Assembly: GCF_004135365.1 (NCBI RefSeq)
Contig: NZ_CP035492.1
Span: 1,982,501-2,046,500 of the forward strand
Origin: Paenibacillus protaetiae
GTDB taxonomy: Bacteria; Bacillota; Bacilli; Paenibacillales; Paenibacillaceae
Length of the DNA stretch: 64,000 nt
Direction: 5' to 3'
Shown: piece by piece, positions 7,206 to 33,128 of the stretch
How the letters are laid out: each line of letters begins with the position of its first letter
Position numbering within the stretch: position 1 is the stretch's first letter
Notes under the pieces: model-generated
What the model was told of the DNA's origin: nothing
The model's database searches: none
What the model saw: only the letters and a program-made list of their open reading frames with translations
Position numbers and translations under genes: made by a program

Positions 7206-7640
7206 CTAACCTAATGCCATCCTCAGCTTCTCTCTCGTTTGTCTTAACCGGGTTTCAGCGCCGTCCGGATGAAGCGGATCGCTCCAGGAAAAGCCGTCCC
7301 CTTCATAACGGGGGATTACGTGCATGTGATAGTGGCCAAGGTCATTGAACTTGCCGCCGTTCTGGCATATGGTGATACCGTCCGGCCGGAAGATCCGTTT
7401 TAGCGCAACGGATAACTTTTGAGATGCATTCATGATGGCATTTGCAGCTTCTGCATCGAGGTCTTCCACATCCCAATAATGTTTTTTTGGCAAAATTAAT
7501 GTGTGGCCATCGTGAAAAGGAGCAGTGTCGAGCACGCAAGCAATCCATTCGTTGTCGAATACGGTATTTACACCAGGCTCAATGCCGTTTGCGATCCGGC
7601 ACCCCAAGCAATTCAAATGCTCCAAGCTCTCTTCCCCCAT
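7206..7640 (-). CDS. HIT-family nucleotide hydrolase/transferase
   Basis: A histidine-triad protein of 144 residues. The triad HYHMHVIP (H-x-H-x-H-x-x) is intact. An N-terminal CLGCRIANG pair of Cys occurs in bacterial Hit proteins that bind zinc. Members hydrolyse AMP-linked phosphoramidates and dinucleoside polyphosphates in the cytoplasm; the exact substrate cannot be read here. The ATG at 7640 has a GGAGGGG site seven bases away, so the longer frame to 7727 is rejected. It follows nrdR with a terminator between them and has its own terminator. Confidence 0.85.
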   Translation of the reverse strand: MGEESLEHLNCLGCRIANGIEPGVNTVFDNEWIACVLDTAPFHDGHTLILPKKHYWDVEDLDAEAANAIMNASQKLSVALKRIFRPDGITICQNGGKFNDLGHYHMHVIPRYEGDGFSWSDPLHPDGAETRLRQTREKLRMALG

Positions 7641-17469: not shown

Positions 17470-17489
17470 AGCACATATCTACCAAATTG

Positions 17490-17518
17490 TTTACATCAAT
17501 CCTACTCTATCATATAGT
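17490..17518 (+). promoter_or_regulatory. Sigma-A promoter of the SLH 5'-nucleotidase gene
   Basis: TTTACA (17490-17495), 17-base spacer, TATAGT (17513-17518). The start site would fall near 17525, some 40 bases before the ATG at 17565. The rest of the 285-base gap holds no gene. Confidence 0.6.
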
Positions 17519-17564
17519 TAAAAGTGTCAAATGCATTTCCAATATAAGGAGGCGTCAAAAAAAG

Positions 17565-19790
17565 ATGTTACAAGCTTACATGCAGCATACTTTCAAAACC
17601 TTCCTGGCATCGGCAGTCATCGTATCCGGACTAATTCCCGCTGTTTATTCCGCGCAAACGGCACATGCCGCAGAAGCGGACGACTTTTCCCTCCGCATTC
17701 TTCACACCAACGATACCCACGCTCATCTGGATAATATCGCCCGCCGTATGACCGCCATCGCTGCGGCCAAAAACGACAGTACCCTGCTGCTGGATGCAGG
17801 CGACGTATTTTCCGGGACATTGTACTTTAACCAATACAACGGCCTTGCCGACCTTTGGTTTATGAACAAAGCCGGCTACGATGCCATGACGTTCGGCAAC
17901 CATGAGTTCGACAAAGGCCCTGCTGTGCTTGCCGCTTTTATGAAAGAAGCCAAGTTTCCTTTCGTCAGCGCCAATATTGATTTTTCAAAGGATTCGAGCC
18001 TTGGAGGCGCGTACCACACAGCCATTGCCGACAAACCGACAAACGGGCAAATTTATCCTGCAATTATTAAAGAGGTGAATGGAGAGAAGGTTGGCATTTT
18101 CGGCCTGACGACGCCGGACACGGCTGTGTTATCCTCGCCTGGCGACAACATTACGTTTAAAGATTATGAAGCAAGCGCGGAAGCGACCGTTAAATCTCTT
18201 GAAGAAAAAGGTATCAACAAAATTATTGCGTTATCCCATCTGGGGTACACCGTTGACGAAGAGCTGGCCGATTCCGTACCAGGCATTGATGTTATTGTAG
18301 GCGGCCATTCGCATACGAAGCTCGATGCTCCGGAAGTACATAACGCCGACACGGAGCCTACCCTTATTGTGCAGACCGGCGAATACGGGCAATATTTGGG
18401 GCAATTGGACGTCAAATTCGACGATAACGGCGTGCTGACAAGCTGGGACGGCAAGCTGACTTCCATCGACGAGACCGATGCGGCAGGCAAATATGTCATT
18501 GCCGACAATAAAGAAGCGGCAGACAAGCTGGCTGAGCTGGCCAAACCGCTGGAAACACTGAAACAGACGGTCATCGGGAAGACCACGGTCGTGCTTGACG
18601 GGGAACGGGGTTCGGTCCGGAAGCAGGAAACAAATCTCGGTGACTTTACAGCTGACGGCATGCTGGCCAAAGTAAAAAGCATCGTGCATGAAACCGGCGT
18701 AAAAGGTTATGTGACCATTCAAAACGGTGGCGGCATCCGCGCTTCGCTGCCAGCCGGCGACATTACGCTTGGAGGCCTGCTGACCGTTATGCCGTTCGGC
18801 AACAATTTGACCGCGCTGAAGATGACCGGCGCCGAAATTACAGCAGCCCTTGAGAACGGCGTAAGCGGTGTGGAAACCGGCGAAGGACGGTTCCCGCAAG
18901 TTGCAGGCATGCGTTTCGCCTATGACTCCACGAAGCCCGGCGAAAAAATCGATTCCGTCACTGGCACCGTGACGCAAAACGGCAGCCGCATCCAAAAGGT
19001 CGAAATCAAAAACGAAGACGGCACTTATTCGCCAATTGATCCACAAGCGTATTACATCGTAGCTACCAACTCGTATATGGCTACAGGCGGCGACTTTTAC
19101 CGTTCGATGAAGCAGGCCCACGATGACGGGCGTTTCTATGAATTAAATCTGGTTGATTATGAAGTATTCAAAGACTACTTGGCATCGGCCGGCACCGTCA
19201 GCCAGCAGATCGAAGGCCGGATTACCGATCTGAAGGGCGCTTCGCTGCCCGGTCAAACGGCGGCATTCTCAGACATCCAAGGACACTGGGCTGCCGATGC
19301 AATTACAAAAGCAGCAGCGCTTGGGCTGGTTACCGGCTACACCGACGGCACCTTCAAGCCGGATAACACCATTACACGCGCCGAATTTGCCGTTATTGCA
19401 AGCCGCGGCTTGAAGCTTGGCGACACTTCCAGCGGATTCCCGTTCAAGGATGGCGAAGACATTCCAAGCTGGTCGAGAATCGCCGTCGGACAGCTGTTCT
19501 TGCTTGGCATCATCCAAGGTTATGAAGACAATACATTCCGTCCGTCCAATCCGGTGACACGGGAAGAGATGACCGTTATGGCCGCCCGCGGTTTGCAGCT
19601 TCAGATTGATCCGGCGGCCGTACCGAGCTTTACCGATGCCGGCAGCATTCATCAGTGGGCGAAACCTTACGTAGCCGCCGCTGAAAAAGCCGGTCTTCTT
19701 GACGGTATCGCAAACGGCAAGTTCAACGGCTCCGGTTACGCAACACGCGCTGAAGTGGTTACGCTGCTGCTTGCCGGCGCTGGCTTGTAA
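17565..19790 (+). CDS. SLH-anchored 5'-nucleotidase/cyclic phosphodiesterase
   Basis: A surface enzyme releasing phosphate and nucleosides from extracellular nucleotides. A signal peptide (cleavage near AHA, residue 35) is followed by a metallophosphatase with ILHTNDTHAHLDN, GDVFSG, GNHEFDKG and GGHSHTKLD metal ligands. The 5'-nucleotidase C-terminal domain (NGGGIRASLPAGDIT, TNSYMATGGD) comes next. Three SLH repeats (from about residue 565) each carry TRAE/TREE motifs, anchoring it to pyruvylated secondary wall polymer. The ATG at 17565 has an AAGGAGG site; the frame to 17487 is rejected because it crosses the promoter. It ends in a strong terminator. Confidence 0.93.
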   Translation: MLQAYMQHTFKTFLASAVIVSGLIPAVYSAQTAHAAEADDFSLRILHTNDTHAHLDNIARRMTAIAAAKNDSTLLLDAGDVFSGTLYFNQYNGLADLWFMNKAGYDAMTFGNHEFDKGPAVLAAFMKEAKFPFVSANIDFSKDSSLGGAYHTAIADKPTNGQIYPAIIKEVNGEKVGIFGLTTPDTAVLSSPGDNITFKDYEASAEATVKSLEEKGINKIIALSHLGYTVDEELADSVPGIDVIVGGHSHTKLDAPEVHNADTEPTLIVQTGEYGQYLGQLDVKFDDNGVLTSWDGKLTSIDETDAAGKYVIADNKEAADKLAELAKPLETLKQTVIGKTTVVLDGERGSVRKQETNLGDFTADGMLAKVKSIVHETGVKGYVTIQNGGGIRASLPAGDITLGGLLTVMPFGNNLTALKMTGAEITAALENGVSGVETGEGRFPQVAGMRFAYDSTKPGEKIDSVTGTVTQNGSRIQKVEIKNEDGTYSPIDPQAYYIVATNSYMATGGDFYRSMKQAHDDGRFYELNLVDYEVFKDYLASAGTVSQQIEGRITDLKGASLPGQTAAFSDIQGHWAADAITKAAALGLVTGYTDGTFKPDNTITRAEFAVIASRGLKLGDTSSGFPFKDGEDIPSWSRIAVGQLFLLGIIQGYEDNTFRPSNPVTREEMTVMAARGLQLQIDPAAVPSFTDAGSIHQWAKPYVAAAEKAGLLDGIANGKFNGSGYATRAEVVTLLLAGAGL

Positions 19791-19962: not shown

Positions 19963-20766
19963 TTATGGCGCAACAGCAGCAGCGGCAAGCAGCTGCTTGC
20001 TTCGCTCTTCCCGTTCGGCCGGCGTCATACGCGGGCACGTATAACATTTGCTCCCGTTCTCCCGGCGGTCATACATACAGCAGGATGACTGCAGCATCCA
20101 TTTCTCTTCGGGATTCAGCGGGTTCTCCACATACCGCGGAATATGCCGGAACGGGTTGCGCCTGACGTGAAACAGCTCCGGTTCAAGCCGCTCCGACAGT
20201 ACCCGGCTGTACTGCTCCAGCTTGTGAAGCATAGGCTCGCGCGGCACCAGCTGCTTGGCGAAATTTTTTAAAATCGTCAATTGGCCGCCGAATTGCTGCC
20301 AGATCGCTTCCGCCTTAAGGCCGGCGCCTTTTGCGACAGCTTCAACGGCAGGCGTAACCGTCCCGGCGAAATAAGCGCTCCATTTGTCCGCAAGAAACTG
20401 CTCCGGATCCCCCGCCGGAATCGGTTCGGTATGCAAAGCTTTTATTTTATAGCCAAGATGGGCATGATCGCCATGAATCTCCACTTGGTAGATTAAATGC
20501 TCCAGCGACAAATCGATAAACCGGTCGTATTGGACGGCAAACCAAAGCTGGATCAGGCTGAGCTTGCAAAGCGACGTTCCGATAAATGAAGCCGGGAGCG
20601 CATGCGAAAGCGCCTGAACCGCATTGCCGCTTTCTCGCAATGCCGCCTCCAGTGCGGCAGACTCCAGCAGCTGCGCTGCCTCCATTTGAAAGCTCGGGTC
20701 ATCAGCGCCTTCCGGCGACACATGTAAATACGTTCTAACGATCGTAAAATCAAACGGTGTTTCCAT
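19963..20766 (-). CDS. FhuF-like siderophore-iron reductase, [2Fe-2S] C-terminus
   Basis: Predicted to reduce ferric siderophores in the cytoplasm so that iron is released. The diagnostic feature is the C-terminal cysteine cluster SCCMYDRRENGSKCYTC, matching the CC-x10-C-x2-C iron-sulfur motif of FhuF. The first 200 residues are helical and resemble the FhuF/IucA C-terminal-type fold only loosely. At 267 residues it has the usual length. A Fur-like box lies 42 bases upstream of the ATG, supporting iron-repressed expression. It stands alone between two terminators, without a linked siderophore transporter. Confidence 0.8.
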   Translation of the reverse strand: METPFDFTIVRTYLHVSPEGADDPSFQMEAAQLLESAALEAALRESGNAVQALSHALPASFIGTSLCKLSLIQLWFAVQYDRFIDLSLEHLIYQVEIHGDHAHLGYKIKALHTEPIPAGDPEQFLADKWSAYFAGTVTPAVEAVAKGAGLKAEAIWQQFGGQLTILKNFAKQLVPREPMLHKLEQYSRVLSERLEPELFHVRRNPFRHIPRYVENPLNPEEKWMLQSSCCMYDRRENGSKCYTCPRMTPAEREERSKQLLAAAAVAP

Positions 20767-20807
20767 CCCTTTCCCCCGTCCTCCCTGTCCTTGACTGTTA
20801 TATTTTA

Positions 20808-20822
20808 TGATAACGATTCTCA
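20808..20822. promoter_or_regulatory. Fur box upstream of the FhuF-like gene
   Basis: TGATAACGATTCTCA fits the 7-1-7 Fur core TGATAAT-N-ATTATCA with three mismatches. Its position before an iron reductase gene makes it credible. Confidence 0.65.
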
Positions 20823-20878
20823 GTTATGCCGTCAATGAACAAGGAACAGCGGCATTTGAGCTGTTTCAATACATGACA

Positions 20879-20932
20879 GCAAAACTAAAAAACAGCCCTG
20901 GCACATATCCGTGGGCTGTTTTTTAGTTTTGC
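20879..20932. terminator. Strong bidirectional terminator
   Basis: A perfect 20-bp inverted repeat (20879-20898 and 20913-20932) with a 14-base loop and A6/T6 runs inside the arms. It ends the minus-strand membrane operon that starts at 25208 or earlier. Confidence 0.9.
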
Positions 20933-20954
20933 TGCTGCAAGATAAACAGCATCT

Positions 20955-21878
20955 TTACAGCTTGGCTGCCGGCTTGACCACGAAGGTGCCCGCCTTGCCT
21001 TTACCGTCGATCTCGATCGTATAGTTGCCGGGCTGCGGATTGTTGAGCAGAAAAATATTTTCACCCGGCTTCACATCGGCACTGAAGTTCAAGTCACTGG
21101 ATACGATCTTCAGTCCATTCCCCGCGCTCCCCTTGACATTAAATACGATTTTGATCATGGCATTCGCTTCAAATTCAGTTACCTTCGGCGCAAAACCTGC
21201 CCCGATGACATCAATTGTGGCGACCTGCATGTTGTTCTCGTCATCCATCACCGCAACCTGCATTTGCGGCAGCCCGATTTCACCCAGCTGCAGCTTGTCC
21301 TGAAGTACGATGATACTCGTGAATAGCACGACTGCACAAGCGGCCAGAACATAGCTGCTCCGGTATGAAGGTTTGCGAACTTGCAAAACTGCGGTACGGC
21401 GGCCGGATGTATTGCTGGCCATGCGGGCGCGCGGCTTGCCAGCCGGTGCGGTGCCGGTTGCAGTAGAAGCCCCGTCCGCTGTTCGTTGAATCAGAAAGGC
21501 AAGCATTACGAATAGCAGCGCCGTGATGAGAACAACCGTGCCGGAACTAAAGAACAAGCTGCCAAGCACAGTGCCGATTAATCCGGCGATTAGCCCTGCC
21601 AAGCCGCCGTTCACAGATGAATGCTGGCCGTACGCCAAGCCGCCCGAGGCGCCGGCAACCGCTCCGAAAAGAGCAGCGAGCGACAGCAGCCCGATGAACG
21701 GCATGTCGAAGGACTGCGCCAGTACAGCGCCGAAGGCAAGCCCGGCTGCGATCGCAGACAGAACAGCGCTTCGCAGGCCAACCCGTTTCAGCCGAACGGA
21801 TCTTTTTTGAAATCCAATGAAGTTGAAATAGAGCTCTATCAGCCCAATCATCATCAGGCTCCCGGCGTTAAACAGCAT
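20955..21878 (-). CDS. Membrane protein with C-terminal cupredoxin-like domain
   Basis: The last gene of the HupE/permease operon. About five hydrophobic helices occupy residues 5-135, a basic linker follows, then another helix (VLAACAVVLFTSIIVL). The C-terminal 100 residues form a beta-sandwich (VIGAGFAPKVTEFEANAMIKIVFN) like the cupredoxin_1 domains of EfeO-type proteins. The usual copper ligands (Cys/His/Met near the end) are not evident, so metal binding is doubtful. I prefer ATG 21878 because the upstream GACGGAG is nine bases away; ATG 21887 would abut it. Exact role unknown; context suggests metal handling. Confidence 0.65.
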   Translation of the reverse strand: MLFNAGSLMMIGLIELYFNFIGFQKRSVRLKRVGLRSAVLSAIAAGLAFGAVLAQSFDMPFIGLLSLAALFGAVAGASGGLAYGQHSSVNGGLAGLIAGLIGTVLGSLFFSSGTVVLITALLFVMLAFLIQRTADGASTATGTAPAGKPRARMASNTSGRRTAVLQVRKPSYRSSYVLAACAVVLFTSIIVLQDKLQLGEIGLPQMQVAVMDDENNMQVATIDVIGAGFAPKVTEFEANAMIKIVFNVKGSAGNGLKIVSSDLNFSADVKPGENIFLLNNPQPGNYTIEIDGKGKAGTFVVKPAAKL

Positions 21879-21894
21879 GTTATTCATCTCCGTC

Positions 21895-22827
21895 TCATTT
21901 CAATTTCTTGCCAAAGTCCCAATCCGGATAGATGTACGGAATGTCCGGCGAGTCCGCCGGTTCCGCGCTTTGGATCATCAACTTGATGACTTTCTGTCCA
22001 TGATAGGTCGTGCTTGCAATCGTACCCGTTAAGGTCAACCAAGTGTCGTTAGCGTAACTTGCCGCGTTATCTGCTTCCGCAATAATTCCATAAGGCGATA
22101 TATCTGCGATACAGTGCGTCATCGCCATCCGGCCGATAATCAGCTGATTAGCCGCCAGTTCGTTTTCCCGATACACAAATCCCCGAATTTGAAGCGTTTT
22201 GCCTTGAAAATTGTCAACAAACGTGTTCATCGCCTGCAGTTTCTCGATGAACCACTCGTCGGACATCACAATTTCGTCTTGCTTGTAAAGCAGCATGCCG
22301 AGCTTGGCGTAATCCCGGTTATACGTATCCGAGCGGAACAATTCCTTCAAATCGGAATTTTCAGCTGGGTCCACCTGCGCCAAATCAGCCGGCATCCCGC
22401 CTCCGGTAAAAACGCCCAGGTTCATGCCTTTGTTGTGAGCCAATGAACCCGCAAACGCTTCGTTTGGCAGCAAAAGGCCGAGCAGCACCGGCAAAATAAA
22501 CAAGCCGTAGATTAACCCATTCTTGACAGGGCTGCCAGTCGGCTCATGGCTGTGACCATGGCCTTCATCATGTCCATGGTCGTGCTCCGAACGGCATGCG
22601 CACGCGGCGGCGGGAACTTTGAACGAACGGAAGAGCAGATACAACTGGCCGAGCATGAACAGCGCCATGCAAACGGCCGCAAGGTCAACGTATTTCACAA
22701 GCTGGGGTGCGATAAAAAGCAAAATTTGCCCCGTGGCCGACAAATAAACGATATAAGCTGTCAAACCTAGCAAAATCGCCAATCGTATCAGATTGTGAAG
22801 CAATGGAGCGATCCCGCTCTTCTTCAT
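21895..22827 (-). CDS. TIGR03943-family membrane protein (YcgQ-like)
   Basis: Partner of the DUF318 permease encoded just upstream. Several N-terminal helices are interrupted by a His-rich loop (SEHDHGHDEGHGHSHEP) after ACAC, a likely Zn/Ni-type metal-binding stretch. The extracytoplasmic C-terminal half contains a conserved Cys in MAMTHCIADI and beta-rich segments (LQIRGFVYRE, WLTLTGTI). The ATG at 22827 has AAAGGA at good distance; an ATG at 22845 overlaps the permease stop (TAATG) and is the alternative. Spacing of the operon genes is -3 to 17 bases, so they form one unit. Function in B. subtilis relatives is not defined. Confidence 0.8.
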   Translation of the reverse strand: MKKSGIAPLLHNLIRLAILLGLTAYIVYLSATGQILLFIAPQLVKYVDLAAVCMALFMLGQLYLLFRSFKVPAAACACRSEHDHGHDEGHGHSHEPTGSPVKNGLIYGLFILPVLLGLLLPNEAFAGSLAHNKGMNLGVFTGGGMPADLAQVDPAENSDLKELFRSDTYNRDYAKLGMLLYKQDEIVMSDEWFIEKLQAMNTFVDNFQGKTLQIRGFVYRENELAANQLIIGRMAMTHCIADISPYGIIAEADNAASYANDTWLTLTGTIASTTYHGQKVIKLMIQSAEPADSPDIPYIYPDWDFGKKLK

Positions 22828-22844
22828 GTCGATTTTTCCTTTCA

Positions 22845-23963
22845 TTACAAAATGAATTGCCCGAGCACCCAAGTACCGGCGTAAACCATTACGATGACTA
22901 ACGAGCCGTAAAGCAACACGAACCGCGGCTTGAACACCGCCGACATCATTAGCACCCCTTTCAGATTCAGCATCGGACCAAGTACCATAAACGCAATAAG
23001 CGCGCCGGACGAGAACGTAGCGGTGAAAGACTGTGCAACAAACGCATCCGATGTGGAACAAAGCGACAGTAGGAAACCTAGCCCCATCATGATGAGGTTT
23101 GACCCAGCCGGGCCGTGGCCGAGCGTTTCCAAATTATCGCGAGTGACGAAGGCTTGAAGCACCCCGACCAGCAAAGCGCCGATCAGCAAATATTTCCCCA
23201 TGGAAAAAAACTCGCCGATGGAATGGCTCATAGCATCTGTCAGCTTGCTTATGCCTCGGACAGCCAACCCGCGGGGAGGAGCTGATTCATTGGAGTGGCT
23301 GTCAGCGTCGTTATGGTTATGTGCATGATCATGTGCATGGCTGTGTACGTGGTCATGAGCGTGGTCATGAGCGTGGCCATGGCCTTTCCCTTCGCCTTCA
23401 ATCGGTTTTAACTGGTCCGTTTTTACGAAACGGTGAATGATTAAGCCTACGGCAATCGCCGTCAAAAACGCCAGTCCCATCCGCGACCAGACAATCTCCG
23501 GCTTGTTCCGGAACGCTGTAAGCGTGGACCAGAAAACGATCGGGTTCAATATCGGGCCAACTACGAGGAACGTCGTTGCCGTGTAAAGCGGCATTCCCTT
23601 TGAAATAAGCCTGCGGATCGCAGGCACCATGCCACATTCGCAAATCGGAAAGATGATGCCGATAAAGCTGGCTGCAACGATACCGAAAAATGGATTGCGC
23701 GGAATAAGACGCCGAATCATCCGTTCCGGAACGAATACCTCGAGTATCGCTGAAACAATGACGCCGATGAGCATGAAAGGCAGCGCTTCGATGACAACGC
23801 TAATGAACATCATTTTGGCAATTTGCAGCTTCTGGTTATGCAAAATGACTCCAGGCGACACTTTCGAAAGCAGGTACAGCCCGACAATCATCGCGATAGA
23901 AACAGCAGCAAGAAGGTTGCTGCTCCCGCGCCGCTGCTTGGCGGCTGTTGTGGTCGTTTGCAT
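22845..23963 (-). CDS. DUF318/ArsP-type permease with His-rich loop (YcgR-like)
   Basis: A permease of the ArsP/DUF318 family with about eight helices in two halves. FPICECGMVP in the first half and SLCSTSDAFVAQ in the second contain the conserved Cys-bearing membrane motifs. The central cytoplasmic loop is very rich in His and Asp (a run beginning KGHGHAHDHAHD), suggesting metal capture or regulation. ArsP relatives export organoarsenicals, but the pairing with a TIGR03943 protein and HupE rather than ars genes argues for another substrate, possibly a divalent metal. Starts 12 bases after the HupE-like stop with GGGGGA as ribosome site. Confidence 0.82.
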   Translation of the reverse strand: MQTTTTAAKQRRGSSNLLAAVSIAMIVGLYLLSKVSPGVILHNQKLQIAKMMFISVVIEALPFMLIGVIVSAILEVFVPERMIRRLIPRNPFFGIVAASFIGIIFPICECGMVPAIRRLISKGMPLYTATTFLVVGPILNPIVFWSTLTAFRNKPEIVWSRMGLAFLTAIAVGLIIHRFVKTDQLKPIEGEGKGHGHAHDHAHDHVHSHAHDHAHNHNDADSHSNESAPPRGLAVRGISKLTDAMSHSIGEFFSMGKYLLIGALLVGVLQAFVTRDNLETLGHGPAGSNLIMMGLGFLLSLCSTSDAFVAQSFTATFSSGALIAFMVLGPMLNLKGVLMMSAVFKPRFVLLYGSLVIVMVYAGTWVLGQFIL

Positions 23964-23975
23964 AATTCGATCCCC

Positions 23976-25208
23976 CTAGGCGAATACGCGTTCCGCAAGC
24001 CAGACGGCGCCAAGCGCAAGCGCGGCTGCGGAACCCGTCATAACCGCGCGTCTTGCATACTGCCATTTATGAAGCAGGTACAATACCGGAAGCAAAACGG
24101 CGACCAGCAATATTTGGACGGCTTCAATGCCGAGGTTAAAGCTGATCAAATCTCCTGCAAGCTCGGTTTTTGGCAGGTCCATCGCCTTCAGCAAATCTGC
24201 GAAGCCCATGCCATGGATCAAGCCAAATAAGAACGTCAGCACCCAACGGTAGCTGACCTCTCTGCGGACCAAATTATCGATGGCCACGTAGCAAATGCTA
24301 AGCGCGATGGCAGGCTCGACTAACCGCGGCGAGACGTTGATGATGCCAAGCACTGTCAATGTCAGCGTAATGCTATGTGCAACAGTAAACGCCGTAATCA
24401 TAGCGGCGTACTGTTTAAATGATTGTCTTGCGATAAGCAGCGAAAACAGGAACAACAGATGGTCATAACCGCCTAAAATATGATGAATGCCAAGCTCGAA
24501 AAACGAAAACCAGCCTGACGTTGAATCCCCTTCGCTTTCGCCCGCTCCGGACGCTGTGACAGGCTGGTCTGCAGTGTTCTTTTGCCCGTCCGCGCCTGTA
24601 TTGGCAGGCTGCTTGTTTTCGGAGGACAGCCCGCTTGCATCAGACGGCAGATCCGCATATTCATTTTCTGTCATCTGCATCGCCCAGAGGCGGTTGTCCC
24701 CCGACAACGCCGCGGTGCTCTTCTGCTTCCCATAGTTGATCGTCAGTAAATCCACGTAATTGGACGAGGTCTTGCTTTGCTTGTACAGCTGGTCCGTCAT
24801 GGCGATAGGCTGTCCCGAACCGACAGGCGGGTACGAAGCTTTCAAGATGACTTTCGTCGCGTCTCCTTGCCGGTCAAGCACGCAGCTAATAACTTTCGTC
24901 CATGGCGTCACAGCTCCGCCGATCTTAAGCGCGATGTTTTGCTGCAGCAGTGCGGTCAACGGCTCCTTGATGGCATCAAACTCCTCCTGCTCCAGCATGC
25001 CGTTGGAATTGGCGTCCCCGCCAACCAGTTCAATAACCGACAGTTCGTCCAATGAATACGTCATTTCAGTGCTTGAACGGGTCAGGTCGAGCGTTGTATA
25101 CCCGGCGCTGTAAGCATGGGCGTCCGCTTTCCAAGAGAACGCCTGCACCGTAAAGAAAACCACAATCAAAAAACCGGCCAGAAACCGCATGGCGCCTAAA
25201 AATCGCAT
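23976..25208 (-). CDS. HupE/UreJ-2 family protein with EF-hand loop
   Basis: A signal peptide is followed by a 230-residue extracytoplasmic part and six or seven membrane helices. The extracytoplasmic part holds a textbook EF-hand loop, DANSNGMLEQEE, with ligand positions 1, 3, 5, 7, 9 and 12 filled. The membrane part has the HupE signature: HHILGGYDHLLFLFSLL, FTVAHSITLTL, GLIHGMGFADLL and FNLGIEAVQI. His and Asp residues in these helices are thought to handle nickel or cobalt in relatives. A strong AGGAGGAG site precedes the ATG. It opens the four-gene membrane operon, 94 bases downstream of the giant SLH protein gene. Confidence 0.85.
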   Translation of the reverse strand: MRFLGAMRFLAGFLIVVFFTVQAFSWKADAHAYSAGYTTLDLTRSSTEMTYSLDELSVIELVGGDANSNGMLEQEEFDAIKEPLTALLQQNIALKIGGAVTPWTKVISCVLDRQGDATKVILKASYPPVGSGQPIAMTDQLYKQSKTSSNYVDLLTINYGKQKSTAALSGDNRLWAMQMTENEYADLPSDASGLSSENKQPANTGADGQKNTADQPVTASGAGESEGDSTSGWFSFFELGIHHILGGYDHLLFLFSLLIARQSFKQYAAMITAFTVAHSITLTLTVLGIINVSPRLVEPAIALSICYVAIDNLVRREVSYRWVLTFLFGLIHGMGFADLLKAMDLPKTELAGDLISFNLGIEAVQILLVAVLLPVLYLLHKWQYARRAVMTGSAAALALGAVWLAERVFA

Positions 25209-25240
25209 TCTCTCATTCTCCTCCTTCTAAAAGACAACAG

Positions 25241-25266
25241 GGATGCCGCTCAAATGAGCGGCATCC
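25241..25266 (-). terminator. Hairpin between the giant SLH gene and the HupE operon
   Basis: A perfect 12-bp inverted repeat (25241-25252, 25255-25266). On the minus strand it is followed by a modest T-rich stretch. It could attenuate read-through from the 7.5-kb gene into the membrane operon. Confidence 0.6.
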
Positions 25267-25302
25267 TCCCGTTGCCTGATGCTGATCTACGGTGTAATGC
25301 AA

Positions 25303-28300
25303 TTAATGGTGAAGCAGGTTGTACACAATTTGAGCCGATTCAGCACGGGTCGTGATGCCTTTCGGATCAAAATTGCCTTCGCCGCGCCCTTGCACGAGAT
25401 GCAGCTCTGCAGCCGATTTGATAAACGCAATTGCCCATGGCGCGATATTCGCTTCGTCCTTGAACACTGCTTCATCGGAGCCAGCCGAGGTTGCACCGCC
25501 GGCATGCGCATAAGCGCGCATCAACATAACAGTCATTTCCTCGCGTGTAATTGACGCGTTCGGATCAAACATCGTACTGGTTTTGCCTTGAACGATGCCA
25601 GCCTGAACCGCAATGGCAACGTCCTCCGCAAACCAGTCGTTCGTTTTCACATCTGCGAAGGAGGCTTGGCCTTTCTCCGTCAAATGCAATGCGCGAACCA
25701 GTTGCGCAACGAATTCCGCACGCGTGACGTTGCGTTTTGGTTCGAATGTATTTGTGCTCGTACCGTTAACAATATGCTTTGCAGTCAGTTCGCGAATCAC
25801 GTCCGCCGCCCAGTAATCCGCCGGTACATCCCCAAACCTCTTGTCATATTCGAGAACCGCGTACTGGCTGAAATGGCTGATTTGCGCCGTCATGTAGCCG
25901 TCCTTGTATGTGCCGCCAATGTATTCCAATGTGCCGTTATCAGCGATGTAATACACGCCGGAAAGCGCCGGATTCACGCCGGAGCCAACTTTCAGCTTGA
26001 TCAAGATCGGTTCGCTGAAAGTCGAGAGTTCCGCTGTCTTGCCGCCCGCTGCCGTAATGGACAGACGGAACGAATAGATGTCTCCCGCAGGCTTCAGCTC
26101 TGCGCCAGAGAAGGCTTCGCCCTTGGCAATCACCTGCGCCGCCTCTCCGCTTGCCAACGGAATCAACTGCAACGTTATCGTACTCTTCGACTGTGCGTCT
26201 GCCGGCAGTTTGCCAATCAGCTGCTGCAGCAGTTCCCCCGGAATCGTAAGCGAGAGATCTCCTGCATTCAGCAGAAGGCTTTCGCCTTTGAACGTGTTCG
26301 CGAGATCAGCGGCTAGCTTGACTTCCTGTGTACCAGCCGGAATAGCGGCGGACTTAATGCCGCTTCCGATATCCGTCAGGCTGCCAGTCGTAAGCGTGTA
26401 AGTTTTGTCTGGTACTGAAGGCGCCGTACCATGCTGGTTATTATCGCTGCCCGATTTAGCCTGCACCGTTACGGTCGCACTAGCTGTGAAGCCGCCGTCG
26501 TCCGTCGTTACGGTAATCTTCGCCGTGCCTGGCGCGACTGCCGTTACATGACCGGAAGCGTCTACCGTAGCAACCGACTCTGCATCCGAGCTCCATGTTA
26601 CGTTTTTGTTTGTGGCATTTGCAGGCGCTACCGTTGCCGTCAGGACATACGGATCGTCACCCAACGTCATGGTAAATTCCGATTTGTCTAGCCCGACTCC
26701 TGTTACCGCTGTCGTCTCTCCCTGATTCACCGACAATTCGTGGGTGTCCCGCACGCGGATCCGGTTGCCGAGCGAATATTTGCCGCTGAGGCCTACAGCC
26801 TTCAGCGTGTCCCCGACCTTCATGTCCGGTACCGGTACGCCGCTTTGATTAATGATATAACCATCTACGAACACGGTTACGTCGCCTGATCCGTCGTTGA
26901 TGATATAAGTGCTGCTATCTTTGATTTCTTTGACGATGCCTTCTACTTGAACCAACTGGCCTTGGTAAGCGTCAGATACCGAGTCAGCCGTGGACACCAG
27001 CTTCGGAGCGACAGGAGATCCGGATTTCAGCACGACGATGCTGTTCGCAAACCGGTCGAATACCAGCTCCTTGTCGTTCTCAAATGTACTGATATGGCCA
27101 TAGACGCGTACCGTATCGCCAAGCTTCAGCGAACCCGCCGGCACTTCACTGAAAGCGACGACGCCGCCGGTTGCATCCTGGATATATGCCGAATCATAAA
27201 ATGCCGTCGTCGTCACTTGGCCTTCGACCATGACGCTTGTTCCTTCCGGCTGCTGACGTGCCTCATTTATCGGCATAACCTTCGGTTCTAGGTGTGCCAG
27301 CCAGTTGACAACGTTGACAGAGAACGGAATGTTGTTCGTCGGTCCATCGTTCTGCGTCATTTGCTTGTCGTTGAAAATGTTCATACCCGACAACACAATA
27401 CGGCCATTGCCGATCTGTTCGGCCGCAACGAGCGGAATAACTGAACCGCCGGTAACATCCGTCAGCGCCGGACCATCCTTGCCTTTCGACGTTTGCACGT
27501 TGTATGCGTACGTATCCGCCTTTACTTGCGGACTGTCCTGGAACGTGGTCTCGTTGCCGCGCGCCAGAATCGTTACGTTATCGCTATCCGTCAACGCCTT
27601 CTTGCCGCCGCTGCCGTCATTGGCAGCCAAACTCGAGCCGCTGTAGAAATCGAGCAGCGGAATGAAGTCCGTCAACCCGCCGTTGACAGGCTGATTATGC
27701 AGGCGCACAGAGAAATTCGATGTCAGCGGCGTCGACCAGAAATTACCTTCCTTTGTTTCATCAAATACACCATCGTTATTCACGAGCATGCTAGAGCCGA
27801 TACCGGCAAGCAAGCTGTTCAAATTTTGCGGAGTGCCGTTATAGTTGCTCTTCTCGCTCATCAAGAGCGCTCCTCCGCCATCGACGTAGTTCTTCAGCAC
27901 GTCGATTTCGCCTGCCGTGTACTGCGTGCTCGGATGTGTGACGACGAGTACGCCTACATCGGCGAGAAGTGAAGCGGTCAAAGCCGTTTTGTTCTCGACG
28001 ACTGTGTAGCCTTGCTGCTTCAATGTCAGCGTCAGGGACGTCAGGTTATCCTTATACGATCCCGTATCGCTTGAAGTGTTTTCATTGTTGTGCGTCGCAT
28101 CGATCATAACTTTTATGCCAAGCGGCGCTTTGACGCTGAGCGCTTGCTCGAATTTGTTTTCGCCCAAATCGTTGCCGTCCCCGGCTTCCAGGACGACGAT
28201 CAGCTTATGGTCGCCCGCGGTCGGGTTCGCCCAGCTAACGCTGGCGGTCGCGCTCTGATTGGATGCAAGAGACTCAATCGTCGCGTCGCCGATCAGATGC

Positions 28301-31300
28301 TGCGCGTCGATGCTGTCGTAGTAAAAATGCGCCGTCAAATTCGTCAGGCTAATCGTGCCGAGATTGGACAAACCAGCCTTCAACGTCGCCGGCACGCCAG
28401 CGATGGCTGCGCCTTCAGCGACAGACAAATCGTTGACCTTCACTGACAACGGATCTTGAGGAGACCAAATCGGCGCAGAATACGTGCGGTCTCCATCCTT
28501 CTGTGTCACACGGATAACGAACCATTGTTGGCCGCCGACCACATTGACGACCGGCTTCCAGTTGAACGACGTGCTGTCGCTGGACGGCGTGTATGTGTCG
28601 ATAACACGGCCGCCGTTCGTAACCAGCTCCACCTTCGCGATGTTGTCGTTCGAAGGCGTAGTAATGAAGCTGTACTCCGGATCGCTTGCACTTTCGGACA
28701 CTGCATCGCTGCCCGTTACGTCGAAGTTCAGCGTCTTCGAATCGACGGTAGCGCCCATGTAGTAACCGTTAGCCAGGACGTCGAGCTGTGCGTTCGGGTC
28801 CTCGCTGAAATACACGTGCATGTTGCGCATCGCGTCAAGGAGTGAATCCTGCGTCAGGTCCTTGGCAACGATGATCGTGCGCTTCTTCGTTTGGCCCCAA
28901 GTGCCATCGTGGTTGTCTTCGCCATAGGTTGGCGCAACATGCCATCCAAGGTCCAGCGCGCTGAAAAACTTGTCTTCCGCGTTCACATACGAATAGTTGC
29001 CTGAGCCATTGCCGACTTCCAGCATCGTAAACAGCTTGTCGACGTTTTTGTCGTATGGAATAAAGTTGTCGAACGCGTTTGCGCCCATAGCCGGATGGTT
29101 AAACTGCGCCACGATATTATCGTAGGTCAACGTCCATGCGTAATAGTTTTGCAAGCTTTGGTACGTACCGCCATTCTGTACGCGGTCAATGAAATTGGTC
29201 GTACCGAACACATTTGAATGGCCCCAGGTCGTCGAGGTCATCTCAAAAGCCGGGAAGACGACGAAGCTGCCATCTTTGGTGTATTCGTTGGCCAGATCCT
29301 TGGTCAACTGCCAATCCGAGCCGCCCGTCCGTTCCGGCATGCCGTTATGGTCGACAGTGTCCTGACCAACCAAGTTCGAGTCAATGTCATGCGAATGGTC
29401 AGAAAACGCGAAGTAATCGTAGCCATGCGCCTTAGCTGCCTTCAGCGCATCTTCCGGCGCTCCTTGCGCGTCATGCGAAATGTTCGTATGGTTATGCGTC
29501 GTCCCCCGGTAATGATTGCCTCCGGTGAAACGCTCCAATATTTCAAACGTCCACGTATGCGTTGATGCATTGCCCAGATTGTCCTTGCCGCTCACTTGCA
29601 CGGTGTGCGTGCCGATCGGCAAATCGTCATCCGCAGTCAGTGCCAGCTTGATTTGTGTCTCGGACAACTCAGCCTTAGCCGTGAAGTCTTTACCGTCAAT
29701 GCTGATGCCAAGCGTTGTTGCGTCAACGCCGTTCGGATCGTCGACATTAACGGACACGACCGGGTGAAAGCTTTCAACCTGATCGTTCTGTGCCGGCTGC
29801 TCGTCCGAGTAAGCTGGTCCGTCCGTATCCGACACGACAGGCACCAGATGCGGGGCTGCGGCACTGCCGGACGACTGGTTCGGCTGGCCGGACGTTTCCG
29901 CTTCAATGTAATAATATACATTTGTTGCCGTCACGTTTTCTTTCGGAATCCTGGCATTGTAGTTCAGGTTGTCAGTCGTAACCATCGGAATCGGAGCGAA
30001 ACTCGCGTCGCCCTCGTTCTTATAGTAAAGCGTCACGGAGTCCGCGTATTTAGCCTTCACGGTGAACGGAATGTCCAATCCGATGTACGCTTTTACCAAC
30101 GGTGTATGGCTGAACTGCATATCGCCTTTAATATCTGCAGTGTTTCTTGGTACAAGATAGTAGCCGCTCGTATAAGGAGCACCCCATTTTGTCTGTTCGA
30201 CAACACCTGTGAAGCCAAACGTGTCGCCCAGAGAAACCGCAGTATTGATGTCGATGCCTGAGTTTGCAGCGATCTTCACGATGGCTACATTGCCATCATC
30301 GTCAGCTATCGAGATGTTGTAATCCGGACCGTTCTTCGGAATGTTCGTTACTTTGCCGCGAACCGTAACCAAAGTTCCTTCCAGTTGCTCGGCCTTCGCG
30401 TAGTCGCCCAGATCGGCAATCGACGTAGTTGCGGCTGCAACCAGAGTATCCATTCCTTCGTCCGTAACCGATGATGGCACGAACTGCATAGAACCTGCCG
30501 CGAAGACGGCTTTGCCTTCGAGTTTCACCTTATGGCCGGGTTGAATCGTATCCGCTGGAGCCTGCGCGCTAACGACATGGATGCCGCCTGTGGCATCTTG
30601 CACGTAGTAACTCGTGTTCTCCGTACCAATCGCATTGTTAGCGGATGTTACAACGCCTTCGATCGTCGTCGCATAGCCGACGTTCAACGGAACGCCATTC
30701 GTATCCGTTCCCTCAATATCTGCAATTGCCGATGTTGCTGCAGGTGCCGCATCGACATGCGCATAGAAACTCTCCGGCTGCGTGCCGTCTTTAAACGTCA
30801 CATAAACCGCTTGGCTGCCCTGCACATCGTTTAACGTCAGGCTGAAGGAGCCGTCAGCCGATGCTGCCGCTTGGCCGACCTGCTTTACGGTGCCGTCCGC
30901 CACAACATATGCGCTCACTGCCGCAGATGCGGGAACGGAGCCGGCTGCGCCCAAGAGAGACGAGCTGCTTGCCGAGAATGTAATTTTCGAGGCATCCGGC
31001 GTTGTCATCGTCTTGGAATTATGCAGAACGATTTCTTTTGGATCAGTCTGCACATCTGGCGAATTCAGAACAAAATCATTTGCGGTGTCGCGATTAAAGT
31101 AGCCGTTGCCAAGACCAAACGCATGCCGAGGATCTGAGCCGCTGTCCGTCTTGCGCACGATAGCCCCGCCTTTGATAAGGCTATTATAGAAAGGCGCACC
31201 CCAATGATCGGTTGGCAGCTTGAACGCAGTGTTCGATCCGTCGCCAAACGCCACGATGTCGATGGCGCGCGGATCGTCTTGTCCGGTTAAGCCTGTCGTG

Positions 31301-32793
31301 GAGTAAGCGAGGGTGATGATGCCGCCCGCGCTTGCACTCGGGCTAAGCGCCGTACCGGCCGCTTGGTCGGCTGCAATTGGCAGCGGACCGCCCGTCGCGG
31401 CTGTGCTGCCGGAGACGAGATAATAACCATGCGCCTTGATCGTGCCGCTCAGCTTGTAGCCCGAGCCAATGCTCGTGCCGGTTTGGGACGTATAAACCAG
31501 CGACCATTTATTATTAAATGAAATATCTTCGTTCGTGCGGTTGTACAACTCAAAATATTTCGTGTTGTAAAACGCGCCACCATTACCGCCGTTTGCATAC
31601 AGCTGGCTGATAACGACATCGCCTGCCGTATAGGTTGCCGGCGTTGACACCGTTACTGATGCGCTTGCCGTATAGCTCCCGTCTGCGGTCGTCGCCGTGA
31701 TGATTGCCGATCCGGCGGCGACCGCAGTTACGTTGCCAGTCCCGTCAACCGTCGCGACAGCGGTATTGTTGGATGCCCATTGCACCGCCTTATTCGTCGC
31801 GTTTGTTGGTTCAACCTTTGCTGTCAACTGGCCTGTCTGGCCGACGTCAAGCGACAGATTGTTATTATCCAGGTTCACGCCCGTTACGGCGATTGGCGTA
31901 TCGTCAACCGTCAATTGAGCCGTATCCTGGAAGCCGCCGTCAGCTGTCGTGACCGTGATCGTTGCCGTACCAACAGCGTTAGCCGTCACGGTGCCGTTAT
32001 TGACGCTTGCGACTGTCTCGTCGCTGGAGGTCCAAACTACCGCTTTGTTCGTGGCATTGCTAGGCTGGATGGACGCAGTCAGCTTCTCCGTTCCGCCAGG
32101 CTGTAGCGTGAGCTCCGATTCGTTCAGCGATACGCCCGCCACGGCCACCGGCGTTGTTGTGCCGACCGGCGTACCGCTGACCGTAATGTTGCCGATACGG
32201 CTTGTCCCGGCCGTTCCAATGGCAGTTCCGTTTACTGCCGTAGAATTGTCGGCGACTCTCCACCGTATGTAGACGTTCGGCGAATCGTTAACGTCCGCAG
32301 GCAGCACGTGATTGCTGATGACACCCGTCGTGGGATCATTGGCCACAACGTACGTAGTGCCATCGGATTTCCAAGATTCATTGTCCGTGCTGTATTCCAG
32401 TACGAACGTCTGCGGTCCCGTGTTGGAGCTTTGCTGCACGGAAGACAACGTTATATTGTCGTATCCTTCCGTGCTCAATTTAACCAGCCAATACGAGACG
32501 CCTTTTACCCAACCCGTCGTCGTAACCGATTTCGGGTTCGTTCCTGCAACCCCGATGGCTCCGGCGCCTATCGGCGCGATTACCGTTGAAGGGTTGTTTT
32601 TATTGGCTTCGATACCGTCGTTCGCATAATACGTCGTTGTATCGGAGTCACTAAAATTACTCCATTGCGCCAGCAGCTCCGGCGCCCCGTCTGCGCGTGC
32701 TGTCCCCGACTGCGGAATCAATATGCCAGCCAGCAGCACAAAAGTCAGCGCAAGACCAATCCACTTTCGGTTAATTCTTATAAATGACTGCAT
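25303..32793 (-). CDS. Giant SLH-anchored multidomain protein with PHP/CehA-type phosphoesterase domain
   Basis: 2,496 residues, exported (signal peptide to about 34). Domains in order: N-terminal beta-sandwich (40-210); two Big_2 Ig-like repeats (215-383); a lamin-tail-like domain (390-575, AGDVVISQLYANGG, KYFELYN); an OB-fold-like part (690-900); a PHP/CehA-type metallophosphoesterase (about 1090-1340); a CARDB-like domain (1448-1550); a GATase/ThuA-like fold (1560-1790); two OB-like repeats (1837-2015); a third Big_2 (2028-2108); an unassigned part; and three SLH repeats (2315-2496). PHP metal residues are all present: TTHNHTN, SDHSHD, E...WGHSN, FNHP and YGEDNHD, so it is probably active. 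Lamin-tail and OB domains are common in secreted nucleases. Likely role: scavenging phosphate esters or nucleic acid at the cell surface. The ribosome site is GGGAGAG. Confidence 0.85.
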   Translation of the reverse strand: MQSFIRINRKWIGLALTFVLLAGILIPQSGTARADGAPELLAQWSNFSDSDTTTYYANDGIEANKNNPSTVIAPIGAGAIGVAGTNPKSVTTTGWVKGVSYWLVKLSTEGYDNITLSSVQQSSNTGPQTFVLEYSTDNESWKSDGTTYVVANDPTTGVISNHVLPADVNDSPNVYIRWRVADNSTAVNGTAIGTAGTSRIGNITVSGTPVGTTTPVAVAGVSLNESELTLQPGGTEKLTASIQPSNATNKAVVWTSSDETVASVNNGTVTANAVGTATITVTTADGGFQDTAQLTVDDTPIAVTGVNLDNNNLSLDVGQTGQLTAKVEPTNATNKAVQWASNNTAVATVDGTGNVTAVAAGSAIITATTADGSYTASASVTVSTPATYTAGDVVISQLYANGGNGGAFYNTKYFELYNRTNEDISFNNKWSLVYTSQTGTSIGSGYKLSGTIKAHGYYLVSGSTAATGGPLPIAADQAAGTALSPSASAGGIITLAYSTTGLTGQDDPRAIDIVAFGDGSNTAFKLPTDHWGAPFYNSLIKGGAIVRKTDSGSDPRHAFGLGNGYFNRDTANDFVLNSPDVQTDPKEIVLHNSKTMTTPDASKITFSASSSSLLGAAGSVPASAAVSAYVVADGTVKQVGQAAASADGSFSLTLNDVQGSQAVYVTFKDGTQPESFYAHVDAAPAATSAIADIEGTDTNGVPLNVGYATTIEGVVTSANNAIGTENTSYYVQDATGGIHVVSAQAPADTIQPGHKVKLEGKAVFAAGSMQFVPSSVTDEGMDTLVAAATTSIADLGDYAKAEQLEGTLVTVRGKVTNIPKNGPDYNISIADDDGNVAIVKIAANSGIDINTAVSLGDTFGFTGVVEQTKWGAPYTSGYYLVPRNTADIKGDMQFSHTPLVKAYIGLDIPFTVKAKYADSVTLYYKNEGDASFAPIPMVTTDNLNYNARIPKENVTATNVYYYIEAETSGQPNQSSGSAAAPHLVPVVSDTDGPAYSDEQPAQNDQVESFHPVVSVNVDDPNGVDATTLGISIDGKDFTAKAELSETQIKLALTADDDLPIGTHTVQVSGKDNLGNASTHTWTFEILERFTGGNHYRGTTHNHTNISHDAQGAPEDALKAAKAHGYDYFAFSDHSHDIDSNLVGQDTVDHNGMPERTGGSDWQLTKDLANEYTKDGSFVVFPAFEMTSTTWGHSNVFGTTNFIDRVQNGGTYQSLQNYYAWTLTYDNIVAQFNHPAMGANAFDNFIPYDKNVDKLFTMLEVGNGSGNYSYVNAEDKFFSALDLGWHVAPTYGEDNHDGTWGQTKKRTIIVAKDLTQDSLLDAMRNMHVYFSEDPNAQLDVLANGYYMGATVDSKTLNFDVTGSDAVSESASDPEYSFITTPSNDNIAKVELVTNGGRVIDTYTPSSDSTSFNWKPVVNVVGGQQWFVIRVTQKDGDRTYSAPIWSPQDPLSVKVNDLSVAEGAAIAGVPATLKAGLSNLGTISLTNLTAHFYYDSIDAQHLIGDATIESLASNQSATASVSWANPTAGDHKLIVVLEAGDGNDLGENKFEQALSVKAPLGIKVMIDATHNNENTSSDTGSYKDNLTSLTLTLKQQGYTVVENKTALTASLLADVGVLVVTHPSTQYTAGEIDVLKNYVDGGGALLMSEKSNYNGTPQNLNSLLAGIGSSMLVNNDGVFDETKEGNFWSTPLTSNFSVRLHNQPVNGGLTDFIPLLDFYSGSSLAANDGSGGKKALTDSDNVTILARGNETTFQDSPQVKADTYAYNVQTSKGKDGPALTDVTGGSVIPLVAAEQIGNGRIVLSGMNIFNDKQMTQNDGPTNNIPFSVNVVNWLAHLEPKVMPINEARQQPEGTSVMVEGQVTTTAFYDSAYIQDATGGVVAFSEVPAGSLKLGDTVRVYGHISTFENDKELVFDRFANSIVVLKSGSPVAPKLVSTADSVSDAYQGQLVQVEGIVKEIKDSSTYIINDGSGDVTVFVDGYIINQSGVPVPDMKVGDTLKAVGLSGKYSLGNRIRVRDTHELSVNQGETTAVTGVGLDKSEFTMTLGDDPYVLTATVAPANATNKNVTWSSDAESVATVDASGHVTAVAPGTAKITVTTDDGGFTASATVTVQAKSGSDNNQHGTAPSVPDKTYTLTTGSLTDIGSGIKSAAIPAGTQEVKLAADLANTFKGESLLLNAGDLSLTIPGELLQQLIGKLPADAQSKSTITLQLIPLASGEAAQVIAKGEAFSGAELKPAGDIYSFRLSITAAGGKTAELSTFSEPILIKLKVGSGVNPALSGVYYIADNGTLEYIGGTYKDGYMTAQISHFSQYAVLEYDKRFGDVPADYWAADVIRELTAKHIVNGTSTNTFEPKRNVTRAEFVAQLVRALHLTEKGQASFADVKTNDWFAEDVAIAVQAGIVQGKTSTMFDPNASITREEMTVMLMRAYAHAGGATSAGSDEAVFKDEANIAPWAIAFIKSAAELHLVQGRGEGNFDPKGITTRAESAQIVYNLLHH

Positions 32794-33087
32794 GTACGAG
32801 ACTCACTCTCCCTGTTATGTGTAGCTCAATGCTTTCCGACGATCCAACCCTCGACCTAATCTATCAATGATCATTTAGCTAATTTCAGCTAATCCACCCC
32901 TCTGCTGGAATCCCGTCCACCCGCCCTTTTGACCGATATGTTCGACAAATTTTGTGAAAAATCGACTTTTGTCGTATAAAGTATAAACCAGCATTTCTGC
33001 AGACGCCTCTTAAGAAATTGTAAAGCTCCAGAGCCATACTACTGGATGTCCGGTCTAGCGGGGGATGTATCATCCGAAAAGGCAAAA
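32794..33087. other. Long leader/promoter region of the giant SLH gene
   Basis: No gene is seen in either strand. The region carries two Spo0A-box-like sites (described separately) about 150-180 bases before the start codon. It also has a short palindrome AATGATCATT near 32866-32875. With the adjacent terminator at 33091-33128, the gap to the next gene is 399 bases. Confidence 0.6.
32941..32976 (-). promoter_or_regulatory. Candidate pair of Spo0A boxes
   Basis: TTCGACA (32941-32947) is the reverse complement of the perfect 0A box TGTCGAA. TGTCGTA (32970-32976) on the other strand matches six of seven. Together they form an inverted repeat CGACAAA/TTTGTCG. They lie upstream of the giant SLH gene only, because the neighbouring MFS gene is terminated before them. 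Confidence 0.4.
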
Positions 33088-33090
33088 ATA

Positions 33091-33128
33091 AAAAATGGCG
33101 GTTAGCAGAAATCTGCACCGCCATTTTT
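33091..33128. terminator. Terminator of the second MFS gene
   Basis: A 12-bp stem AAAAATGGCGGT/ACCGCCATTTTT with a 14-base loop. On the minus strand the 3' arm ends in a run of T. Confidence 0.8.

Follow-up and report, generated by a model that had tools for sequence, protein, structure and literature searches.

Why should a bacterium keep the gene for a giant surface phosphoesterase next to genes for membrane proteins that seem to handle metal? The question is raised by a locus in the 64,000-nucleotide (nt) stretch of Paenibacillus protaetiae DNA considered here (the window: contig NZ_CP035492.1, positions 1,982,501 to 2,046,500, in a genome of 4.23 megabases on a single contig). Five genes on the minus strand encode, in order, a 2,496-residue protein with a PHP phosphoesterase domain (the giant), a HupE protein, an ArsP_1/DUF318 permease, a TIGR03943/DUF1980 permease subunit and a cupredoxin-like protein. 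They are separated by 94, 12, 17 and 7 nt, and the unit is bracketed by terminator-like hairpins (Table 1). All five reading frames reported in a preliminary description of the window proved to be open and where it had placed them, except that the TIGR03943 gene, which it began at TTG 23061, more likely starts at the ATG 17 nt past the ArsP stop codon.

That description had made its proposal of a coupled set, a surface phosphoesterase plus a metal-handling membrane operon, depend on a conserved neighbourhood, and such a neighbourhood was found. HupE and the PHP core already occurred together in a first look at 78 relatives. Named genomes were searched with the PHP core alone, a scan free of the bias that comes from profiles seeded with neighbours of HupE, and 78 loci were found in Paenibacillaceae and Bacillaceae (Paenibacillus, Cohnella, Brevibacillus, Neobacillus, Gottfriedia, Metabacillus, Cytobacillus, Peribacillus and other genera). 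A HupE gene lies near the PHP core in 75 of the 78; two of the remaining three are cut by contig ends and the third has the whole set by tblastn, which leaves HupE beside the giant at all 76 informative loci. Across 246 genomes sampled evenly from the order there are 43 main-clade PHP places; for 42 of them a HupE gene lies within 20 kilobases, the remaining one being on a separate contig. In Paenibacillaceae the two genes mostly point the same way and in Bacillaceae they mostly diverge, and the linkage outlasts these rearrangements of order and orientation. A phylum-wide survey found HupE in only three of 398 genomes, and the new one (locus L203) also adjoins a PHP giant. In these spore-forming soil bacteria the PHP-HupE link is near-obligate, and the coupled set is strongly supported by this co-occurrence.

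Seen from the side of HupE, the association is broader. Of 85 sampled HupE genes, 45 directly adjoin a gene for a secreted phosphoesterase, a figure that leans upwards in that the profiles for calcineurin-type and purple acid phosphatases (PAPs) were partly seeded from HupE neighbours; the corresponding numbers are 2 of 551 genes further off and none of 329 genes in control windows, a small draw of 19. The partners are of three kinds, PHP giants, giants that combine LTD and calcineurin domains, and PAPs, and the Metallophos/PAP domains were confirmed by Pfam. On the HupE tree the partner classes require 11 changes, at least four of them for the PAP partners, and the linkage of HupE to phosphoesterases therefore arose repeatedly. 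At some loci (L071, L085, L035, L040 and L025) the PAP gene lies between two different HupE genes, each from one of two deep HupE clades. A long-branch clade (L028, L046 and L047) has as neighbours DUF3500 or other secreted proteins, which are not phosphoesterases.

What kind of enzyme is the giant? Pfam recognizes three Big_2 domains, LTD, OB-type, PHP, CARDB and GIFT/DUF4350-like domains and three SLH repeats, and the multi-module SLH protein with intact PHP metal residues that had been described earlier is borne out by these matches, by predicted structure and by residue conservation. The Pfam match to PHP is itself weak (E 1.2e-4, 22.9 bits, below the cut-off of 26.4), and the assignment therefore rests on fold and residues. 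The AlphaFold2 (AF2) model of the domain has a pLDDT of 90, and its best solved matches are two PHP phosphoesterases, TM0559 (2anu; Z 19.6, root-mean-square deviation (rmsd) 3.0 over 202 aligned residues) and BVU_3505 (3e38; Z 19.4, rmsd 4.1, 249 aligned); by sequence, the PDB gave only weak PolX/YcdX matches. The metal-residue pattern (HxH, DH, E, H, DxH) is present, and H1100, H1102, D1132, H1133, E1184, H1192, H1233, E1259, D1293 and H1295 are invariant in all 31 homologues aligned. The predicted fold is thus that of a PHP protein with its metal site intact, similar to BVU_3505 and TM0559 in fold and metal-type residues, whereas here the PHP is a single domain inside an SLH-anchored protein of LTD, OB, GIFT-like and Ig-like modules. 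An NCBIfam search of the giant gave no CehA-type match, an absence that says nothing either way on membership of CehA/McbA.

The activity of the giant is probably hydrolysis of phosphate esters at the cell surface, with release of phosphate. Scavenging of phosphate esters, as earlier proposed, is plausible in view of the PHP fold, of a neighbouring 5'-nucleotidase-SLH gene, the catalytic part of which forms part of the giant in some relatives, and of a mild enrichment of Pho-box-like sites; for the nucleic-acid substrate proposed along with it, nothing specific was seen in support. Some PHP giants carry a terminal type I dockerin where others have SLH, and the gene that follows is for a cohesin-SLH protein: L136:8063-17341, L019:1643-3274 with L133 (Cohnella endophytica), and L143. 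Pfam supports the L136 pair and the L019 anchor, and the remaining dockerins were recognized by eye. Such a pair looks like a cellulosome-like two-piece anchor for a phosphoesterase.

The HupE protein is, by its predicted anatomy, an anglerase. A signal peptide is followed by a beta-sandwich and then by helices predicted to form a HupE/UreJ-2 permease (Pfam HupE_UreJ_2, PF13795, E 4.2e-48), and the likely mature protein starts with a histidine, the cleavage between ADA and HAYS being predicted from the motif. The pair A30-H31 is invariant across an alignment of 53 HupE sequences, and a cleavage-type motif stands ahead of the histidine in 85 of the 89 proteins examined. Sequence searches found no solved relatives, and the matches came through fold alone. 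The top-scoring solved fold is the copper-bound Ang-1 domain 9gce (Z 11.8, rmsd 3.9, 145 aligned; Foldseek E 2.6e-5), on whose residue 1 residue 31 of the model superposes; the zinc proteins ZrgA and PA4063 come next. In the permease, H243, H250 and H278 are invariant, and their spacing (7, 28) is that of the predicted metal histidines of the Ang-2 HupE (PMC12537917). The EF-hand of the preliminary description is an acidic loop at mature residues 35-46 of the outward-facing domain and belongs more plausibly to the Ang domain. Its first Asp, mature Asp35, is nearly invariant and may be the partner of His1 in a predicted metal site, a place taken by Asn41 in Ang-1 and Asp33 in Ang-2 (PMC12537917).

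Shared with Ang-1 and Ang-2 are the signal peptide, the mature N-terminal histidine, the beta-sandwich with helices between strands 2 and 3, the linker, and the permease with equally spaced histidines. The HupEs considered here differ in their EF-hand-like acidic loop, in their near-obligate pairing with a PHP giant and in coming from Bacillota, a phylum without report of anglerases in the discovery paper, which places Ang-1 particularly in Pseudomonadota and Ang-2 in Actinomycetota and mentions metallophosphatases among the neighbours of the Ang-2 genes of the latter (PMC12537917).

The remaining membrane genes also belong to known families. The ArsP_1/DUF318 permease scores 250.4 bits against a Pfam cut-off of 32.3, and its His-rich loop is found in 43 of 57 relatives. 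The TIGR03943 subunit passes its own cut-off (156.3 bits against 88.8), and both the N- and C-terminal DUF1980 domains were found. An assignment to the SO_0444 Cu/Zn efflux family (NF033936) was rejected at 114.3 bits against a cut-off of 300. Adjoining genes of both families and His-rich loops are shared with known DUF318/TIGR03943 pairs; here, however, a THCIAD motif stands where a few relatives have the CC type, and the pair sits behind an anglerase and a PHP giant. The fifth protein was said to be cupredoxin-like, and its fold agrees, with a Cupredoxin_1 match slightly under the Pfam cut-off, but its domain contains no His or Cys and the relatives have none at conserved positions. Without these copper ligands it does not qualify as a copper cupredoxin.

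How might the unit be controlled? The attenuator-like hairpin noted earlier 3' of the giant gene is real: none of 200 shuffled sequences folds as stably. Most co-directional loci with more than 60 nt between the giant and HupE genes carry a hairpin there, often with a GGATGCC...GGCATCC core, and the remaining loci have gaps of 0-23 nt or overlaps. This is consistent with transcription of both genes together, with a brake or a processing site between them, which the preliminary description had suspected. Upstream of the giants, Pho-box-like pairs (TTNACA-type half-sites 10-12 nt apart) occur in 31% of regions against 6% at a score of at least 11 (p 7e-6) and, in a second set, in 27% against 8% at a per-sequence p of 0.05 or less (p 3e-5); the two sets overlap in part, and the p-values are optimistic because the sequences are related. 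A pattern scan of the same regions showed no enrichment of Zur, Fur, MntR, CsoR, NikR or AdcR sites and only marginal enrichment of PerR sites. Within the window, matches to a Zur-type operator are scattered and weak, with none upstream of the giant or HupE genes, and Rfam has no match in the unit. A separate hairpin element around GGCGGGGCGCA lies about 130-190 nt upstream of the giant gene at L069 (about 1790-1850), L081, L102, L084 and L024 (about 7325-7375). Its outer arms vary yet still pair, and it too has no match in Rfam.

The reading I favour, and of which I am about half persuaded, is that the unit comprises a phosphate-scavenging ecto-phosphoesterase and its own metal-handling system, which delivers metal to the enzyme. 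The SLH-anchored giant would hydrolyse phosphate esters on the cell surface by means of its PHP metal site, and the four membrane proteins encoded downstream would deal with the transition metal on which it depends. On the outer face, the N-terminal histidine of the anglerase-type HupE would hold metal, which the protein would exchange with its own permease half, the His-rich ArsP/TIGR03943 pair would set the flow of metal, and metal would reach the exported enzyme during or after secretion. The comparison is with the TerC proteins MeeF and MeeY of B. subtilis, membrane metal transporters that load exported enzymes, as shown for manganese (PMC10550928). The proposed role is the same, but the protein families are unrelated (no TerC domain was matched by Pfam in any of the five proteins), and TerC is general whereas the unit is gene-linked to one enzyme. 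Manganese is the metal of TerC; here I infer the metal, and likewise the hydrolytic activity, its substrate, the direction of metal flow and control by phosphate starvation.

Delivery to the enzyme is favoured because HupE is found again and again with metal-dependent exoenzymes, of three kinds, and because the control signal is phosphate-like, and in this respect the earlier supposition that the operon supplies the metal fits best. The authors who described anglerases propose instead capture and uptake of metal (PMC12537917), and this gives the main rival, which I consider unlikely without thinking it far-fetched: the anglerase domain would fish transition metal outside the cell for import by HupE and ArsP, and the giant would attack phosphate-ester chelates such as phytate and set free the metal and phosphate in them, enzyme and importer making a nutrient-uptake pair. 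It draws strength from nickel transport by the HupE of Rhizobium (cited in PMC12537917) and from the zinc bound by the near folds ZrgA and PA4063. An uptake unit would, however, be expected to have Zur, Fur or MntR boxes, in place of which Pho-like sites are enriched, and three kinds of linked metalloenzyme suit the need of an enzyme better than they do a single substrate.

It is improbable, in my estimation, that the genes share control and nothing more, the metal genes riding in a phosphate-starvation unit when starvation alters the speciation of metal or the demand for it, with no direct action on the enzyme. The enrichment of Pho-box-like pairs would suit this, as would PhoB-type control affecting iron limitation, which is reported for Synechocystis (PMC11126600), but shared control alone would not need HupE to stay beside the phosphoesterase gene through changes of order and orientation. 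I find it harder still to credit a metal efflux or detoxification unit that is a chance neighbour of the surface protein, even though relatives of ArsP_1 include arsenic and Cu/Zn exporters (all matches below family cut-offs) and a CopA-like gene, as read from the sequence, adjoins one HupE (L070). Against it stand the near-obligate linkage to phosphoesterases and the lack of a metal-efflux regulator in the set.

Several observations besides the proposal of uptake weigh against delivery to the enzyme. The ArsP, TIGR03943 and cupredoxin-like genes are optional, present at roughly half of the linked loci, the giants at the other half having HupE only. A close PHP paralogue (L024, genome G018) lacks HupE, as do the surroundings of two distant ones (L204 and L205). 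Many LTD-calcineurin giants of the order are in genomes or places without HupE, and the calcineurin-HupE link is therefore optional. A 17-member HupE clade has no adjoining phosphoesterase by profiles, one neighbour (L093) being phosphoesterase-like by eye. Enrichment of Pho-box-like pairs is modest, with an imperfect site in the window itself, and the case is one of sequence and predicted structure.

Known families account for every part of the unit; what appears to be undescribed is the near-obligate coupling, the set of five genes and the occurrence of anglerases in Bacillota. No papers joining HupE with PHP or SLH proteins were found in a literature search without most subscription journals or preprints. 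The supply of metal to enzymes outside the cell is a young question, of which TerC-type loading is the only worked-out bacterial case found. To judge from the pairing, bacteria may reserve a supply of metal for the enzymes that they display outside the cell. A wider proposal, held more tentatively than delivery itself and somewhat doubtful, is that in Bacillota the anglerase-type HupEs are dedicated to loading metal into exported phosphoesterases, which would be a second and gene-linked route of exoenzyme metalation beside TerC, repeatedly linked to enzymes of different folds. The near-obligate pairing of a surface phosphoesterase with an outward-facing metal-binding permease offers a simple genetic test of enzyme-specific metal loading. 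For the HupE/UreJ-2 anglerases it provides a physiological setting, and it ties phosphate scavenging by soil bacteria to the supply of trace metal.

Table 1. Features of the five-gene unit and its borders. Positions are those of the window.
Feature	Position	Strand	Basis
Giant surface protein, 2,496 residues: signal peptide, Ig-like (Big_2), LTD, OB-like, PHP, CARDB, GIFT/DUF4350-like, OB-like, Big_2, three SLH	25303..32793	-	Open reading frame, Pfam
PHP phosphoesterase domain (about residues 1091-1330)	28804..29523	-	Invariant residues, AF2 model, PDB matches
SLH cell-wall anchor, three repeats (about residues 2370-2496)	25306..25686	-	Pfam PF00395, E 1e-32
Hairpin with short T-run between giant and HupE genes	25233..25276	-	Fold z -4.7; hairpins at the equivalent place in relatives
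Anglerase-type HupE (predicted): signal peptide, mature N-terminal His (residue 31), beta-sandwich, HupE/UreJ-2 permease	23976..25208	-	Pfam, alignment, fold match
ArsP_1/DUF318 permease with His-rich loop	22845..23963	-	Pfam E 3e-74
TIGR03943/DUF1980 permease subunit, His-rich loop and THCIAD motif; likely start ATG 22827	21895..22827	-	Profile matches
Membrane protein, cupredoxin-like domain without copper ligands	20955..21887	-	Pfam, residue check
Terminator-like hairpin 3' of fifth gene	20871..20938	-	Fold z -6.7
Terminator-like hairpin of upstream MFS gene, parting it from the giant gene	33091..33128	-	Fold z -6.5
Pho-box-like pair TTTACAATTTCTTAAGA upstream of giant gene, one half-site imperfect	33008..33024	-	Pattern scan; set-level enrichment

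Two genes just beyond the unit deserve mention. An FhuF-like ferric reductase gene (19963-20822 of the window) is apart from the unit and has upstream of it a site resembling a Fur box, TGATAACGATTCTCA (20808-20822), recognized by eye. At 17487-19790, on the plus strand, is the gene for a 767-residue metallophosphoesterase of 5'-nucleotidase type with SLH. Its catalytic part is fused into the PHP giants in L022, L023 and L184 and is found in genes nearby in L175, L191 and L196.

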